From positions 1-25,868 of the IMG/VR virus record IMGVR_UViG_3300044591_001457: a stretch of DNA of 25,868 bases. One strand, 5' to 3'. Origin of the DNA: a virus. The notes under the pieces were generated by a model, which was not told the origin of the DNA, ran no database searches, and saw only the letters and a list, made by a program, of their open reading frames with translations. This document shows, piece by piece, positions 980 through 15,249 of this stretch (position 1 is the first letter of the stretch; each line of letters starts with the position of its first letter). Both the position numbers and the translations under genes were made by a program.

Positions 980-1001
980 CCAACCTCCTCAGCGAGGTTG
1001 G
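980..1001. repeat. Perfect 8-bp hairpin over the primase stop codon
   Basis: CCAACCTC (980-987) and GAGGTTGG (994-1001) are perfect inverted copies with a 6-nt loop. The hairpin overlaps the TGA of the primase-helicase gene. No run of T follows on either strand, so it is not a standard intrinsic terminator. The core ACC/GGT motif recalls the AAGGTTAG repeats nearby and the GGTTGGC copies at about 3063-3080. Confidence 0.5.
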
Positions 1002-3028
1002 CAGTAGACCCATTTCATCCGACCTTCCAACCATTGCCGAGACTTTTCAAAGCCCATTTCGCGCAAGATCGAGGCCACCTGCATCTGATCGGCTCTGCCT
1101 TGGCGCTCCACCGGCTTGCCGATCGCTTCGGTCAAAAGCAGCTCTGAGGTGATGTGCCGACCATGGTTGACAGGTTGGTTAAGCCAGGTCTCGATGGCCG
1201 CCTTCCATGGGCTGTCGACCAGGTAGGACTCGTTCTCACGATCCACCTGTGCGGCGTGTTCAGCGGCAAGGTGGTTTGGCTCGCCTTTGCGATAGGCAGC
1301 GACAGCAGCTGACCAGATGGCATCGCGCTCAAGCAGTAGGCCATCGACAGGGATGTGGGGTGCTGCGGTCACAGGGATGACCCAGAAGCGGCGGTTGCCG
1401 GTGTCATCAACCAAGAAGCCCGTATCCCGGTTGGTGGAGCCGACGATGATCGAGCGGCGCGGAAATGCTTCCGTTGTGCGTTGGTATGGCGCGCGGAACA
1501 TGTCGGTCTGTTGGGTGAGGAAGGCTTTCACCTGACCTGCGTGCTTGCGGCCGGTGATGTGATCCAGCTCGGCCCACTCCATGAGCCAGGAACGGTGCAG
1601 CACCATGAGGTCGTCTTTCGAGCCGATGTCACGCAGGGCATCGCTGAACCAGAGGCCGCCGAGATTGCGCCAGAAAGTGGACTTACCGCAGCCTTGTGGC
1701 CCCATGAGCACGCAAGCTGAATCGTGCTTGCAGCCGGGCTCAAAGATGCGACGCACAGCTGCGATGAGCGTGGCCTTGAGCATGGCGTCATAAAGAGTGC
1801 CGGGCTGATCGTTCGGTCGCAGGTAAGCGGTGGCGAGGTGATCGATAGCTGCTGGTGGAACGTGATCAGCGACGTGCTCGAGGTAGTTCCGCACGGGGTC
1901 GTGTGGGTTCTCTAGAGCGACGACGTGAACGGCATCTGCTGCGAGGTCTTTGGTGACCTTGACGCCCTCTTGGGCCATCTGCAGATAGAAATGCTCGATG
2001 TGCTCGAGGGGCTTTTCGTCCAGCTCGATGGTCTTGGTGAAGACGTTCCAACGAAGGCGTTCGCCTAGCTGCTGGCGCAGAAGGGTGAGCAGCTCGTTGG
2101 ATTCGAGCTTGAGCAGCTTGTCTGGGCGAGCTGTAGGCTGTGCCGTGCTGCGCTCCTGTGGCTGGGACGCTGGCCGCTCGGCTGGAGACGGGCGGCCTTT
2201 TTCATGGCCGGCGAGATGGGCAAGGGTGCCGAGGGAGACGCCACCGGCTGCGGCATGGAAGGTGCGCCATTTTGCCTCGCAGACACCGGGCTCGAACTTG
2301 CCGGATGAGGCGGACCAGCTGATCCAGTCAGAGAGGAGCGAGTCGTCGCCGACGCTGTGGAGCGCCATGCCGACCTTGACCCATGTGTCGTAGTCGTCTG
2401 CGTCAGCGGCGGGAATGCGCTGAAGGAAATCTCGAGCGCGTGTGCTGTCGGTTTCCGGCAGGCGCAGCAGCGGGGCCGGATCAGGCTTGTGGCGCTGCAT
2501 CTGCTGCAGAAGCAGTGATGGCGCCTCAGCGAGGGGCAGCTCACCAGGGCCGCGGCCTTTCAGCCAGCGATAGGCGCCGGTGATGGGGTGTGCGCCAGCA
2601 ACGACGGACTGACAGCCTGCCCAACGCAGTTCAAGCTGTTCGCCCTTGATCGAGCTGCGCAGCTTGGTGGTTTTGATGGTGGCCCAGAAGGGCTCAGGCA
2701 CTTGGTAGATGATCTGGACGCGAGCATCACGGCCTGAGGTAACGGCCCATGATTTCGGCAGATCACGCAGTGGTGCGCCGATGCGCTCGAGCACCTCTGA
2801 AGCGCCTAGGCCGTCGTGATCAACGAACAACAGGCCACCGGACTGCGGGCCTGCGATCACGCCGATAGCAACAGCACGCCCAGCTTGGATCTCAGCGGTC
2901 AGATCGTCGCGGGAGATGGGGTGCTTTTGCCACTCGGGCTGATAAGGGCGCTTGTCGTTGCCTACTGCGACGAGAGCCCATGAGTCGGGGAGCTGGGAGA
3001 GCTGCTGGAGGAGGGGGTGGCTGGTCAT
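989..3028 (-). CDS. Bifunctional PrimPol primase and VapE/P4-type helicase (679 aa)
   Basis: This is the likely phage replication initiator, combining RNA/DNA primer synthesis with an AAA+ helicase. Residues about 1-180 form a PrimPol domain, with the metal-binding pair at D70-x-D72 in LLFVDHDG and a later strand QLELRWAGCQSVVAGAHP. Residues about 195-275 look like a primase C-terminal (PriCT) domain. Residues about 380-600 form the VapE/D5-like ATPase, with Walker A GPQGCGKST at 443-451, an acidic Walker B region around WLMEWAELD (481-489), and a sensor region IIVGSTNRDTGF followed by NRRFW. A Pro/Gln-rich linker (about 278-303) joins the halves. The start lies 8 nt after the VRR-NUC stop, so helicase, nuclease and primase form one operon. 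Confidence 0.9.
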   Translation of the reverse strand: MTSHPLLQQLSQLPDSWALVAVGNDKRPYQPEWQKHPISRDDLTAEIQAGRAVAIGVIAGPQSGGLLFVDHDGLGASEVLERIGAPLRDLPKSWAVTSGRDARVQIIYQVPEPFWATIKTTKLRSSIKGEQLELRWAGCQSVVAGAHPITGAYRWLKGRGPGELPLAEAPSLLLQQMQRHKPDPAPLLRLPETDSTRARDFLQRIPAADADDYDTWVKVGMALHSVGDDSLLSDWISWSASSGKFEPGVCEAKWRTFHAAAGGVSLGTLAHLAGHEKGRPSPAERPASQPQERSTAQPTARPDKLLKLESNELLTLLRQQLGERLRWNVFTKTIELDEKPLEHIEHFYLQMAQEGVKVTKDLAADAVHVVALENPHDPVRNYLEHVADHVPPAAIDHLATAYLRPNDQPGTLYDAMLKATLIAAVRRIFEPGCKHDSACVLMGPQGCGKSTFWRNLGGLWFSDALRDIGSKDDLMVLHRSWLMEWAELDHITGRKHAGQVKAFLTQQTDMFRAPYQRTTEAFPRRSIIVGSTNRDTGFLVDDTGNRRFWVIPVTAAPHIPVDGLLLERDAIWSAAVAAYRKGEPNHLAAEHAAQVDRENESYLVDSPWKAAIETWLNQPVNHGRHITSELLLTEAIGKPVERQGRADQMQVASILREMGFEKSRQWLEGRMKWVYCQPR

Positions 3029-11570: not shown

Positions 11571-11756
11571 ATGCAGTACATCCTCCGCATCGGCCCATGG
11601 CACGTCGGGCCGTTCGCCACCCACCTCGGTGCGCAGCACTTCGCCGAAAGCCACGGCTGCGACGACTACACCCTCATCCCGCTGGACGATCCGGCTGAAG
11701 CACCGGGTCGCATTCACCGGCTCAGAATGGCAGCACTCCGCCACCCAGCCATCTGA
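11571..11756 (+). CDS. Small protein of unknown function (61 aa)
   Basis: The sequence opens MQYILRIGPWHVGPFATHLG and continues with a helix AQHFAESHGCDDYTLIPLDDP, giving a compact beta-alpha-beta unit of a kind common in phages. The tail is basic. The ribosome site is weak. Its stop TGA overlaps a CTG codon that opens the frame of the next protein. No family is recognised. Confidence 0.5.
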   Translation: MQYILRIGPWHVGPFATHLGAQHFAESHGCDDYTLIPLDDPAEAPGRIHRLRMAALRHPAI

Positions 11757-11797
11757 AGCTCACGCTCTCCGCTGACCTGCTCCAGCAGGCGCAGGCC

Positions 11798-12337
11798 GTG
11801 TCCGATGCGCGGCATCGCAACCGCTTGCAGGCCGGCTCCCGCGATCACAGCTGCGGCATGGCGTCCGATGCCACCAACCTGCTCGGCGCCGTCAGTGAGA
11901 TCGCCCTGCACCAGTTTTTCGGCCTGCCGATCGACTGGACCTTCCTCGCCACTGATGCCGGCTTCTGTCAGCCGGATGTGGGCGGTCTCTGGGAGGTGCG
12001 CAGCACCGTGCGCCCCGGCAACAGGCTCTACCTGTTCGAGCGTGAGGTGACGCTGGAGAAGCTCGCCGCACCGTTCGCGTGGATCCTGATCGAAGGCCTC
12101 GGCACGCAGCAGGTGACCTGCCACCTGCAGGGCTGGGCGATGGGATACGAGGTGATCACCCGCGGCGTGCGCCAGCAGATCCAGCGCGCGCCGTCCTTCT
12201 TTCTGGCGAACGATCGGCTGCGGCGGTTCAGCGCACCGGCACCAACCTGGCGCGCGGCACGGTGGTGCGCGAATAGTGCGCGAATGGCGCTCAGAGCCGC
12301 TCCGCCGCCTGCTGGCAGCCCCTGCCTAAGTGCTTGA
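11798..12337 (+). CDS. Probable PD-(D/E)XK-fold phage protein (179 aa from GTG)
   Basis: Residues 29-110 have LGAVSEIALHQFFGLPIDWTF, QPDVGGLWEVRSTVRP, RLYLFEREV and PFAWILIEGLG, the layout of a restriction-endonuclease-like fold: a helix with Glu (E34), then D60, then E66-V-R68. The usual Lys of the ExK motif is Arg here, so catalysis is uncertain. GTG at 11798 is the first ordinary start, but the frame is open from 11699 and upstream residues (LKLTLSADLLQQAQA) look like protein, so a CTG start at 11753, overlapping the previous stop, is possible. The last 35 residues are Pro/Arg-rich, and the reading frame there crosses the left arm repeats of the attachment site. Confidence 0.6.
   Translation: MSDARHRNRLQAGSRDHSCGMASDATNLLGAVSEIALHQFFGLPIDWTFLATDAGFCQPDVGGLWEVRSTVRPGNRLYLFEREVTLEKLAAPFAWILIEGLGTQQVTCHLQGWAMGYEVITRGVRQQIQRAPSFFLANDRLRRFSAPAPTWRAARWCANSARMALRAAPPPAGSPCLSA
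12266..12287 (+). repeat. Left arm-type repeats of the attachment site
   Basis: TGCGCGAA occurs at 12266-12273 and 12277-12284, 11 bp apart. The full 22-bp block is repeated identically at 12517-12538, right at the integrase start. The block lies 66 bp left of the tRNA-Phe core. The interpretation as integrase arm sites is inferred. Confidence 0.65.
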
Positions 12338-12352
12338 TCTCTCTGGAGGTTT

Positions 12353-12397
12353 TGGTGCCCAGGGGCGGAATCGAACCACCGACACTGCGATTTTCAG
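12353..12397 (-). other. attP core: tRNA-Phe(GAA) 3' fragment
   Basis: Read on the minus strand, the segment runs from an anticodon loop CTGAAAA (anticodon GAA) through TCGCA, GTGTC, a perfect T-arm GGTGG-TTCGATT-CCGCC, and CCTGGGC-A-CCA. This is the last 45 nt of a bacterial tRNA-Phe including the encoded CCA. Beyond 12397 the tRNA match ends, because the 5' half of the anticodon stem is absent. Ending exactly at the anticodon loop is typical of phages that integrate into tRNA genes with tyrosine recombinases and restore the 3' end of the gene. CTCTGGAG (12341-12348) and CTCCAGAG (12402-12409) flank it as a perfect inverted repeat. Confidence 0.85.
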
Positions 12398-12484
12398 CCG
12401 ACTCCAGAGGCCTCACGGCGGTTCACGGAATCTCACTAAAGGTCTGATTCTGCGCTGCTTTTCCGGTTGACCTGTTCACGCTTG

Positions 12485-12535
12485 TTCGCGCAAGATCCGC
12501 CCCGTTCGCGCAAATCTGCGCGAATAGTGCGCGAA
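12485..12535. repeat. Right arm-type repeats of the attachment site, beside the integrase start
   Basis: TTCGCGCA occurs at 12485-12492 and 12505-12512, 20 bp apart. Its complement TGCGCGAA occurs at 12517-12524 and 12528-12535, 11 bp apart. These four right-hand copies and the two on the left straddle the tRNA-Phe core. The last copy lies next to the integrase ribosome site (GGAGAGG), so bound integrase could limit its own expression. Confidence 0.7.
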
Positions 12536-12546
12536 TGGAGAGGGGC

Positions 12547-13647
12547 ATGGCGAAGGAGTGGCAGGCTGATCGGAAGGTGCCCGGCCTAGGGCTGATGGTG
12601 CTCGATTCCGGGGTCCGCACCTATTACGTCCGCTACCGCGAGCCGAGCGGCAAGCAGCAGCACCACAAGATCGGACGGGCTGGCGTGATCAGCCTCACCA
12701 CCGCCCGCGAGGAGGCGCTGAAGCTGCTCGGTGATGTTGCCCGCGGCATGGCGCCGACCACCGCGCGCCAGCAGCTCAGGCGCAGCCCGACCATGCAGCA
12801 GCTGTTCGAGCGGCTCGATGCCGAGCACTATCCGAAGCTGCGGCCGAACACCGCCACCGGGTACCGCGTCCTCTGGCGCCGCCACATCTCGCCGCGTCTA
12901 GGGAGCAGCAAGGCCGCGACCATCACCAGCGCCGATGTGATCGACCTGCTCGGCAAGCTGCCGCGCATCCAGGCGAACCGCACGCTGGCGGTGCTGCGCA
13001 AGGCCTTCAACCTGGCGGAGCTGTGGGGCATCAGGCCGCAGAACACCAACCCGTGCCACAAGGTCACCACCGGCAACAGCGAACGCAAGCGGCGCCGCTA
13101 CCTGACGCGCGAGGAGCTCCAGCGGCTGCTGGCGGCCTTGGATCGCTTCGGCATTACCCGCGTGCGCTGGCGGTTCGCGCAGCTGATCCGCCTGCTGCTG
13201 CTCACCGGCTGCCGCGTCTCAGAGATCAAGGATGCGCGCTGGGAATGGGTGCAGGGCGCTGTGCTGGTGGTGCCGGCCGATTGCCACAAGACCGGACAGG
13301 ACGGCAGCGATCGCCGCGTGCAGCTGCCACCGCAGGCGCTGCAGGTGCTTGAGGAGCTGCGCGCCAAATCGAACAGCGAGTGGATCATCCAGGGCGATGG
13401 CGATGGCCACCTGATCGGTTACCACCGGATGTGGGCGCAGCTGCTGGAGGCCGCCAAGATCGAGAACCTCCGGGTGCATGACCTGCGGCACAGCTTCGCC
13501 AGCCTTGGCCTGAGCGCCGGGCTGAGCCTGCCTCAGATCGGTGGTCTGCTCGGCCACGCCAGCCCGCAGACCACGCAGCGCTATGCCCACCTGATGGATG
13601 AGGCCGCTGCTGGCATGGCCGCGAAGGTGGCGGCGCTGATCCGCTAA
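12547..13647 (+). CDS. int: Tyrosine-recombinase integrase, P4-like (366 aa)
   Basis: This is the site-specific recombinase that inserts and excises the phage. Residues about 1-70 (VPGLGLMVLDSGVRTYYVRY and following) match the DUF4102-type arm-binding domain of P4-family integrases. Residues about 80-165 are the SAM-like core-binding domain. The catalytic set is complete: R223 in GCRVSEI, K248, H311-x-x-R314 in HDLRHSF, H337 in LLGHAS, and Y346 in RYAHL. The ATG at 12547 is preferred because GGAGAGG lies just upstream; an ATG at 12535 overlaps that site. A tRNA-derived attachment core and repeated arm sequences lie immediately upstream. Its stop overlaps that of the convergent dCTP deaminase. 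Confidence 0.95.
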   Translation: MAKEWQADRKVPGLGLMVLDSGVRTYYVRYREPSGKQQHHKIGRAGVISLTTAREEALKLLGDVARGMAPTTARQQLRRSPTMQQLFERLDAEHYPKLRPNTATGYRVLWRRHISPRLGSSKAATITSADVIDLLGKLPRIQANRTLAVLRKAFNLAELWGIRPQNTNPCHKVTTGNSERKRRRYLTREELQRLLAALDRFGITRVRWRFAQLIRLLLLTGCRVSEIKDARWEWVQGAVLVVPADCHKTGQDGSDRRVQLPPQALQVLEELRAKSNSEWIIQGDGDGHLIGYHRMWAQLLEAAKIENLRVHDLRHSFASLGLSAGLSLPQIGGLLGHASPQTTQRYAHLMDEAAAGMAAKVAALIR

Positions 13648-14159
13648 CCCTTGCTGCCCGTCACGGCCTCATCGCCGTTGTAGCGCCCGGTGACCGCATA
13701 GCTGCGCGCCGGAATGCCTTCCATCTTGTGGAACACCATCTGGCCGATCTTCATGCCCGGCCAGATCGCAATCGGATACAGCCGGCGTGCGTTGCTCAGC
13801 TCCAGCGTGAGGCGGCTGCCATGCCACCCTGGATCGCACCAGCCGGCCAGCAGATGCTCGAGGCCTTCGCGGGCGCGGCTGGACTTCAGCACGAACTGCG
13901 CGGCGATGCAGTCCGGCAGGTTGAAGATCTCGCGGGTTTCGGCGAGGCAGAACTCACCCGGCCGCAGCCAGTACGGATCCTCCGCGGTGTGGCCGGCGAT
14001 GCCATGGATCTGCAGGTCGCGGCTCTCGGCCACCTCGATCATGATCCGATCGCCCAGCAGCACGTCGATGCTGGCCGGATTGACCAGCTCAGGATCGAAC
14101 GGCATCACCATCGCGTGCTTCTTGCACAGGTGGTGGATCTCGTAATCAGGCAGCGGCAC
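13644..14159 (-). CDS. dcd: dCTP deaminase-like protein (171 aa)
   Basis: It is expected to convert dCTP to dUTP (or directly to dUMP in bifunctional forms), supporting dTTP supply for phage DNA. Motifs are LPDYEIHHL at the N-terminus, PASIDVLLGDRI, SSRAREG (93-97 core), GWCDPGWHG and LTLELSN with the likely catalytic E120. The GTG at 14159 is preferred: it gives the usual start just before the LPDYEI strand and lies 7 nt after the endolysin stop, whereas an upstream TTG at 14210 adds unrelated residues. It is the last gene of the late minus-strand run. A dUTPase of the same fold is the main alternative. Confidence 0.8.
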   Translation of the reverse strand: MPLPDYEIHHLCKKHAMVMPFDPELVNPASIDVLLGDRIMIEVAESRDLQIHGIAGHTAEDPYWLRPGEFCLAETREIFNLPDCIAAQFVLKSSRAREGLEHLLAGWCDPGWHGSRLTLELSNARRLYPIAIWPGMKIGQMVFHKMEGIPARSYAVTGRYNGDEAVTGSKG

Positions 14160-14166
14160 AGGTTGC

Positions 14167-15249
14167 TCAGTAGTCCCAGCGCACCCTAGGTCCGCCCTTG
14201 CGGATGCCAAGGTGGACGAAACCCTTCGGTGCGCCGTAGCCGAGCGAGTGCGGCCAGGTCTTGTCGCACCAGTCCTGCACGGCGTTGATGTCAGCGCCGT
14301 CGATCAAGAAGTCCACCGCACCGACGCCGATGCCGTCGTAGAGGTGCTCTGAGCTGCTGGCGCCACCCACTGAGCGGTTGACGGCTGACGGCCGGTAGCC
14401 GGAGGTGATCACGATCGGCCGGCCACCGAACTGCGCGCGCACCTTCTCGAGGAACTGCGCCAGCCTCAGCGCCGTGTCGCACTGGTGCTGGTGATCGAAA
14501 CGCCGCGCCTCTTGCCCGATCGCAAACTCACCCGCGGTGATGTGCGGGGTGATCTTCTGACTGAAGGGCGACTCCGGCGTGAACATCGCGGAGATCGGTC
14601 CGGTGGTCTGCCGCTCGCGGCCCCATAGGTCACCTTCTGCGATGCGGCGCCGCTTGAGCCCTGCCTCCACGTTGGTGCCGGGGTTGCGGTAGAGCAGCAG
14701 GGCATCGGGCACGCCCGGCCAGTCCTTCTCGCGCAGCCGGCGGCTGATGGTCTCGAAACCCTTGGCGCCGTAGAAGCCAGAGCCGAGGTTGTAGGCGAAG
14801 GAGATCAACGCGCACTTCTGCGCATCGGTCATCTCCACCCAGAAGGGCACGGCGGTGCGCAGCTTCTCGGCGATGCGATCCACCTCCTGCCGCAGGAGCA
14901 GGTCAGCCTCGATCGCGTTGATCTCGTCGCCTTCGCTGACGGCGCGCCCGTCGCTGTAGCGGGTTGTCCCGTAGCCGATCGTCCACGGTGCGCCGCCGCT
15001 GAGCGGGTCGGGGTAGGCCTTCAGGTGGCAGCCCTCGAACTCCTTGATCAGCTTCAGCGCTGGAGCCAGATCCGCCTGCTTGCCGTCCTGGCTCCATGTG
15101 TTGAACCATGCCCGGTCGCGGCGCATCGCTGCCGCGTAACCGTTCACGGCGAGATCCTGCTCGAGCTGCTGAATCGCGGCCGCCTGATGCGGCAGGTTCC
15201 GGTAGTAGCGGAACAGCTGCTCGATCGTGATCGGCGCGGCGTTGGCCAT
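14167..15249 (-). CDS. Endolysin: GH24 lysozyme fused to an M15-type peptidase domain (360 aa)
   Basis: This enzyme probably lyses the host. A helical N-terminus (1-60) precedes a T4-lysozyme-type domain: FEGCHLKAYPDPLSGGAPWTIGYG with catalytic E72 and a T90 site, FAYNLGSG at about 151-158, ending near 210. Residues about 230-360 resemble peptidase M15 (D-Ala-D-Ala type): ITSGYRPSAVNRSVGG, and zinc ligands H302 in SSEHLYD, D313 in GAVDFLI and H346 in FVHLGI. Two activities would cut both glycan strands and peptides. No signal peptide is visible, so export probably needs a holin. It lies next to two small membrane-protein genes. Confidence 0.9.
   Translation of the reverse strand: MANAAPITIEQLFRYYRNLPHQAAAIQQLEQDLAVNGYAAAMRRDRAWFNTWSQDGKQADLAPALKLIKEFEGCHLKAYPDPLSGGAPWTIGYGTTRYSDGRAVSEGDEINAIEADLLLRQEVDRIAEKLRTAVPFWVEMTDAQKCALISFAYNLGSGFYGAKGFETISRRLREKDWPGVPDALLLYRNPGTNVEAGLKRRRIAEGDLWGRERQTTGPISAMFTPESPFSQKITPHITAGEFAIGQEARRFDHQHQCDTALRLAQFLEKVRAQFGGRPIVITSGYRPSAVNRSVGGASSSEHLYDGIGVGAVDFLIDGADINAVQDWCDKTWPHSLGYGAPKGFVHLGIRKGGPRVRWDY

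Follow-up and report, generated by a model that had tools for sequence, protein, structure and literature searches.

A tRNA-Phe-derived attP core and a probably exchangeable integrase targeting cassette in a siphophage of the S-CBS3/S-LBS1 kind

The window analysed here, the whole stretch of 25,868 nucleotides of IMG/VR virus record IMGVR_UViG_3300044591_001457, belongs to a freshwater-type phage. In its phage family, the nearest counterparts of portal, terminase, capsid, primase, helicase and endolysin are those of Synechococcus siphophages S-CBS3, S-CBS1 and S-LBS1. Near the middle of the window, a 45-nt segment starting at 12353, TGGTGCCCAGGGGCGGAATCGAACCACCGACACTGCGATTTTCAG, lies between two copies of a 22-nt repeat, TGCGCGAATAGTGCGCGAATGG, and beside a tyrosine integrase gene (Table 1). 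Each repeat is made of two direct half-sites, TGCGCGAAT, with a spacing of 11 bp; two further half-sites (TGCGCGAAC) are inverted, and when the window was searched for additional arm sites only the two known places reached even 16 of 22 positions. The longest integrase frame opens at 12535, with 12547 the likelier start, and the gene begins approximately 150 bp from the core. Numbered from 12535, the integrase has an arm-binding domain (approximately residues 1-85), a core-binding domain (approximately 90-178) and a catalytic domain (approximately 185-357) with a complete catalytic set (R227, K252, H315, R318, H341 and Y350). Phage genes are located on both sides of the core, and the site is therefore taken to be an uncut attP; judged by its sequence, it is a complete lambda-type attP with arm repeats on either side of a core and an integrase. 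An inverted repeat flanking the core, CTCTGGAG/CTCCAGAG (12341-12348 and 12402-12409), was considered and set aside because its right half differs in relatives and shuffled versions of the stretch fold at least as well. Between a small ORF (11571-11756) and the left arm, the window carries approximately 510 bp (11757-12265) with a frame at 11798-12337; the counterpart of the small ORF directly abuts the left arm in relatives L163 and L130, and a frame similar to 11798-12337 adjoins the arm in L122 and L156.

Table 1. Features of the predicted attachment site and of selected genes in the window
Feature	Position	Strand	Remarks
Prim-pol/VapE-type primase-helicase	989..3028	-	57-63% identical to S-LBS1
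Probable retargeting cassette, segment differing from L172	11720..13072	.	Approximately 96% DNA identity on either side
Left arm-type site	12266..12287	+	Identical to right arm; kept in relatives
Predicted attP core, tRNA-Phe(GAA) from C32 to CCA, 45 nt	12353..12397	-	Exact tRNA gene matches
Two inverted half-sites	12484-12492 and 12504-12512	-	Between core and integrase
Right arm-type site, same 22 nt	12517..12538	+	Overlaps integrase gene start region; kept in relatives
Tyrosine integrase	12547..13647	+	PF13356, PF14659, PF00589; PHROG 1; near-invariant residues
dCTP deaminase, next gene rightward	13644..14210	-	
Endolysin	14167..15249	-	71% identity, full length, to Synechococcus phage S-CBS3 endolysin

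The first-pass annotation had proposed 12353-12397 as an integration core derived from a host tRNA-Phe(GAA) gene, and genomic matches bear this out. Read on the minus strand, the core runs from C32 to CCA through CTGAAAA (positions 32-38), TCGCA (39-43), GTGTC, GGTGG-TTCGATT-CCGCC, CCTGGGC, A and CCA, and it equals genuine bacterial tRNA-Phe genes letter for letter over all 45 nt in at least 119 genome stretches, which excludes a chance origin. It thus comprises the 3' part of the tRNA through the gene end, the sequence arrangement of tRNA-rebuilding integration, and a search for a whole tRNA gene within the window found none. Identity between phage and tRNA-Phe stops at C32, where the next five nucleotides on the tRNA strand are GTCGG in the phage and TGCGA in the host gene; relatives sharing this core differ freely in these five, and all of them carry the core at the same position beside the integrase. 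The annotation had also predicted a host gene with acceptor GCCCAGG and anticodon-stem TGCGA, and among the matches listed the core continues into a whole tRNA-Phe at 116 loci, every one of which agrees, with the upstream half GCCCAGGTAGCTCAGTTGGTAGAGCATGCGA. Its suggestion that the core is a sharp marker of the host genus fails, as the exact 45 nt occur in more than 35 alphaproteobacterial genera among the matches listed; in a sample of 142 genomes drawn evenly across Alphaproteobacteria, six carry it. A literature search for the core string found no paper. In Parvibaculum sedimenti (L084, 5523-7258), a 34%-identical integrase begins approximately 0.6 kb from a match to the tRNA-Phe core and may belong to another element using the same site.

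A search with the arm pattern yielded 94 viral stretches, and the relatives are all uncultivated virus contigs. Reverse-oriented cores between the arms derive from tRNA-Phe, fMet, Lys, Asn or Thr, and forward-oriented ones from tRNA-Thr, Arg or Gly. Across the reverse cores (approximately 47 distinct attPs), the middle of the anticodon lies 122-124 bp before the right arm whichever tRNA is involved, a constancy suggesting that strands are exchanged in the anticodon loop. Integrated relatives were sought and none were found, the informative ones having either kept both arms around an uncut attP or lost the integrase; nor was an attB-attP junction found.

The 45 nt are very probably the attP core of a temperate siphophage resembling S-CBS3 and S-LBS1, whose integrase would recombine it with a host tRNA-Phe(GAA) gene. 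In the proposed mechanism, the N-terminal domain of the integrase would bind the paired arm sites and the core-binding domain the core, and recombination with the host gene would take place within the anticodon loop. Because the segment from C32 to CCA is brought by the phage, the host tRNA would be whole again at one junction (phage side 12352 and below), and the integrase end would adjoin the displaced 3' fragment of the host gene. The putative attP of cyanophage P-SS2 is a tRNA-Met fragment reaching from the anticodon loop onward with an integrase adjoining (PMC2784084); it resembles the window site in beginning at the anticodon loop next to an integrase, but the integrase arrangement is another and the P-SS2 fragment is without the terminal CCA.

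Gene kinship makes picocyanobacteria the favoured and fairly likely hosts. The portal (58-63%), endolysin (71%) and primase (57-63%) are identical at these levels to those of Synechococcus siphophages, and among portal matches with a known host, roseobacter phages come next, at 39%. S-CBS3, S-CBS1 and S-LBS1 (PMC6157547) share homologous structural, replication and lysis genes with the window phage, whereas neither S-CBS3 nor S-LBS1 showed a homologue of the window integrase, arm sites are absent from the DNA of both, and the annotated integrase of S-LBS1 sits elsewhere in that genome. The photosystem gene PF00124, looked for as a host sign, was present in 0 of 15 contigs. An alphaproteobacterial host, such as a Methylocystis-like methanotroph, with the same attachment mechanism is a possible but rather unlikely alternative. 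In its favour are the exact tRNA-Phe matches: those listed among the at least 119 stretches are all alphaproteobacterial or labelled Proteobacteria, in a set of searched genomes without cyanobacteria. Two Methylocystis genomes, including that of Methylocystis silviterrae, carry the Phe and fMet cores exactly, and M. silviterrae fits one Arg(TCT) core at 44 of 45 positions and the Gly(CCC) core at 42 of 45. Many cyanobacterial tRNA genes have no encoded CCA, and every 45-nt core seen ends with one, which would speak against a cyanobacterial host. Against the alphaproteobacterial alternative stand the portal, endolysin, primase and other genes, nearest to Synechococcus siphophages when the best alphaproteobacterial phage portal reaches 39%, together with the Asn, Gly and Lys cores, found in 0 of 142 alphaproteobacterial genomes with two mismatches allowed, and the integrase, which has no close counterpart among 199 genomes from the M. 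silviterrae family (best 39%). A plasmid tRNA search for the host gave mostly Alphaproteobacteria and Clostridioides among the matches listed. The Synechococcus-labelled phages Yong-M4-251 and Ssp-JY43, which match 41 of 45 core positions, were rejected as evidence of a cyanobacterial tRNA, being inovirus-like and having a different anticodon stem.

It has long been asked how tyrosine integrases come to recognise new targets. In this family, nature supplies at least 52 distinct integrases whose cores are known, whose arms hardly vary and whose geometry is fixed. When 52 integrases were placed on a tree with an outgroup, at least 13 changes were needed to explain the target labels. At matched divergence elsewhere in the protein, core-binding identity is 0.63-0.76 for integrases with the same target vs 0.45-0.49 for those with different targets. 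In a quick search using only 88 columns, the core-binding tree places Phe in one clade and fMet in one clade, whereas Phe and fMet are mixed on the arm-plus-catalytic tree; the first Phe clade is approximately 60% identical to the Lys group in the core-binding domain. The core-binding domain thus follows the target clearly, if not perfectly.

The sharpest comparison is between the window and L172, which has a tRNA-fMet core: their integrases are 0.98 identical in the catalytic domain and 0.41 in the core-binding domain, and their DNA matches at approximately 96% as far as 11719 and then from approximately 13072 onward. The segment in between takes in the left arm, the core, the right arms and the integrase codons to approximately 180. 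L171 and L185 have the same identity step at the linker, so that in both pairs catalytic domains 98-99% identical adjoin core-binding domains 41-44% identical. From the flanking identity of window and L172 and the step at the linker, the exchange would have comprised the attP together with the integrase N-terminal half; on these alignments the pair is a switch of target from tRNA-Phe to tRNA-fMet, or the reverse. We consider it probable that a swappable cassette, made up of the attP core and the N-terminal half of the integrase including its core-binding domain, aims near-identical catalytic domains at Phe or fMet, in a family whose targets span seven tRNA isotypes, whose cores occur in two orientations and in which tRNA-rebuilding and tRNA-carrying modes are both present. 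Arms and spacing stay constant across the family as core and core-binding domain change jointly, and a phage could be redirected to a different tRNA by recombination at the linker between core-binding and catalytic domains. A gradual build-up of point mutations in core and integrase, with no cassette exchange, would fit some switches (Lys to Thr or Asn) that have no sharp boundary, but it is an improbable source of the target differences given the step at the linker in two independent pairs, window/L172 and L171/L185. Least credible of all is that the tRNA fragment marks the end of a prophage or older element with host DNA on one side, since, although prophage ends are also marked by tRNA fragments, phage genes lie on both sides, including directly left of 12353 where host genes would be needed, the core is flanked by identical arms, and relatives have the same uncut arrangement.

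In lambda and HK022, arm recognition can stay constant while core recognition differs. The window family resembles them in its three-domain tyrosine integrase and in a core flanked by arm sites, but differs in its tRNA anticodon-loop target, its many targets and its natural chimeras joined at the linker. Pairs differing almost only in the targeting half make the specificity code directly testable.

Mycobacteriophage Boilgate integrates through a 43-bp core at a tRNA gene that is rebuilt, and Fionnbharth combines a 10-bp core with a phage tRNA-Lys(TTT), the arrangement described for mycobacteriophages as tRNA-dependent lysogeny (PMC10865867). The family of the window phage is divided in the same way, although the host phylum is another and the two modes are here interleaved on one integrase tree. 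In L167, L181, L198 and others, the core consists only of a short anticodon stem-loop of tRNA-Lys, and a complete tRNA-Lys(TTT) gene lies beside the left arm; these relatives apparently have the layout of tRNA-dependent lysogeny outside actinobacteriophages, which suggests that this lifestyle extends beyond that group. The window phage, with its 45-nt core and no tRNA gene, falls outside tRNA-dependent lysogeny and belongs to the long-core mode. The tRNA-Lys(TTT) gene lies immediately outward of the left arm in L167 (5695-5769) and also in L181, L186, L195, L198, L202, L220, L221, L223, L230, L234, L241 and L248. Integrases are nearly the same in L236, which has a 45-nt core, and L221, which has a short core and a tRNA.

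Several relatives have reduced or altered sites. In L183, L200, L229, L231, L232, L242 and L253, other genes (dCTP deaminase in several of these contigs) directly follow the left arm; core, right arm and integrase have seemingly been deleted, with one arm left as a scar. In L189, L190, L238 and L247, what follows the left arm is a truncated remnant of the integrase that lacks the N-terminal half. L193, L197 and L246 carry tRNA-Lys cores with an altered T-loop instead of the usual one, which, if used in gene rebuilding, should yield an odd tRNA.
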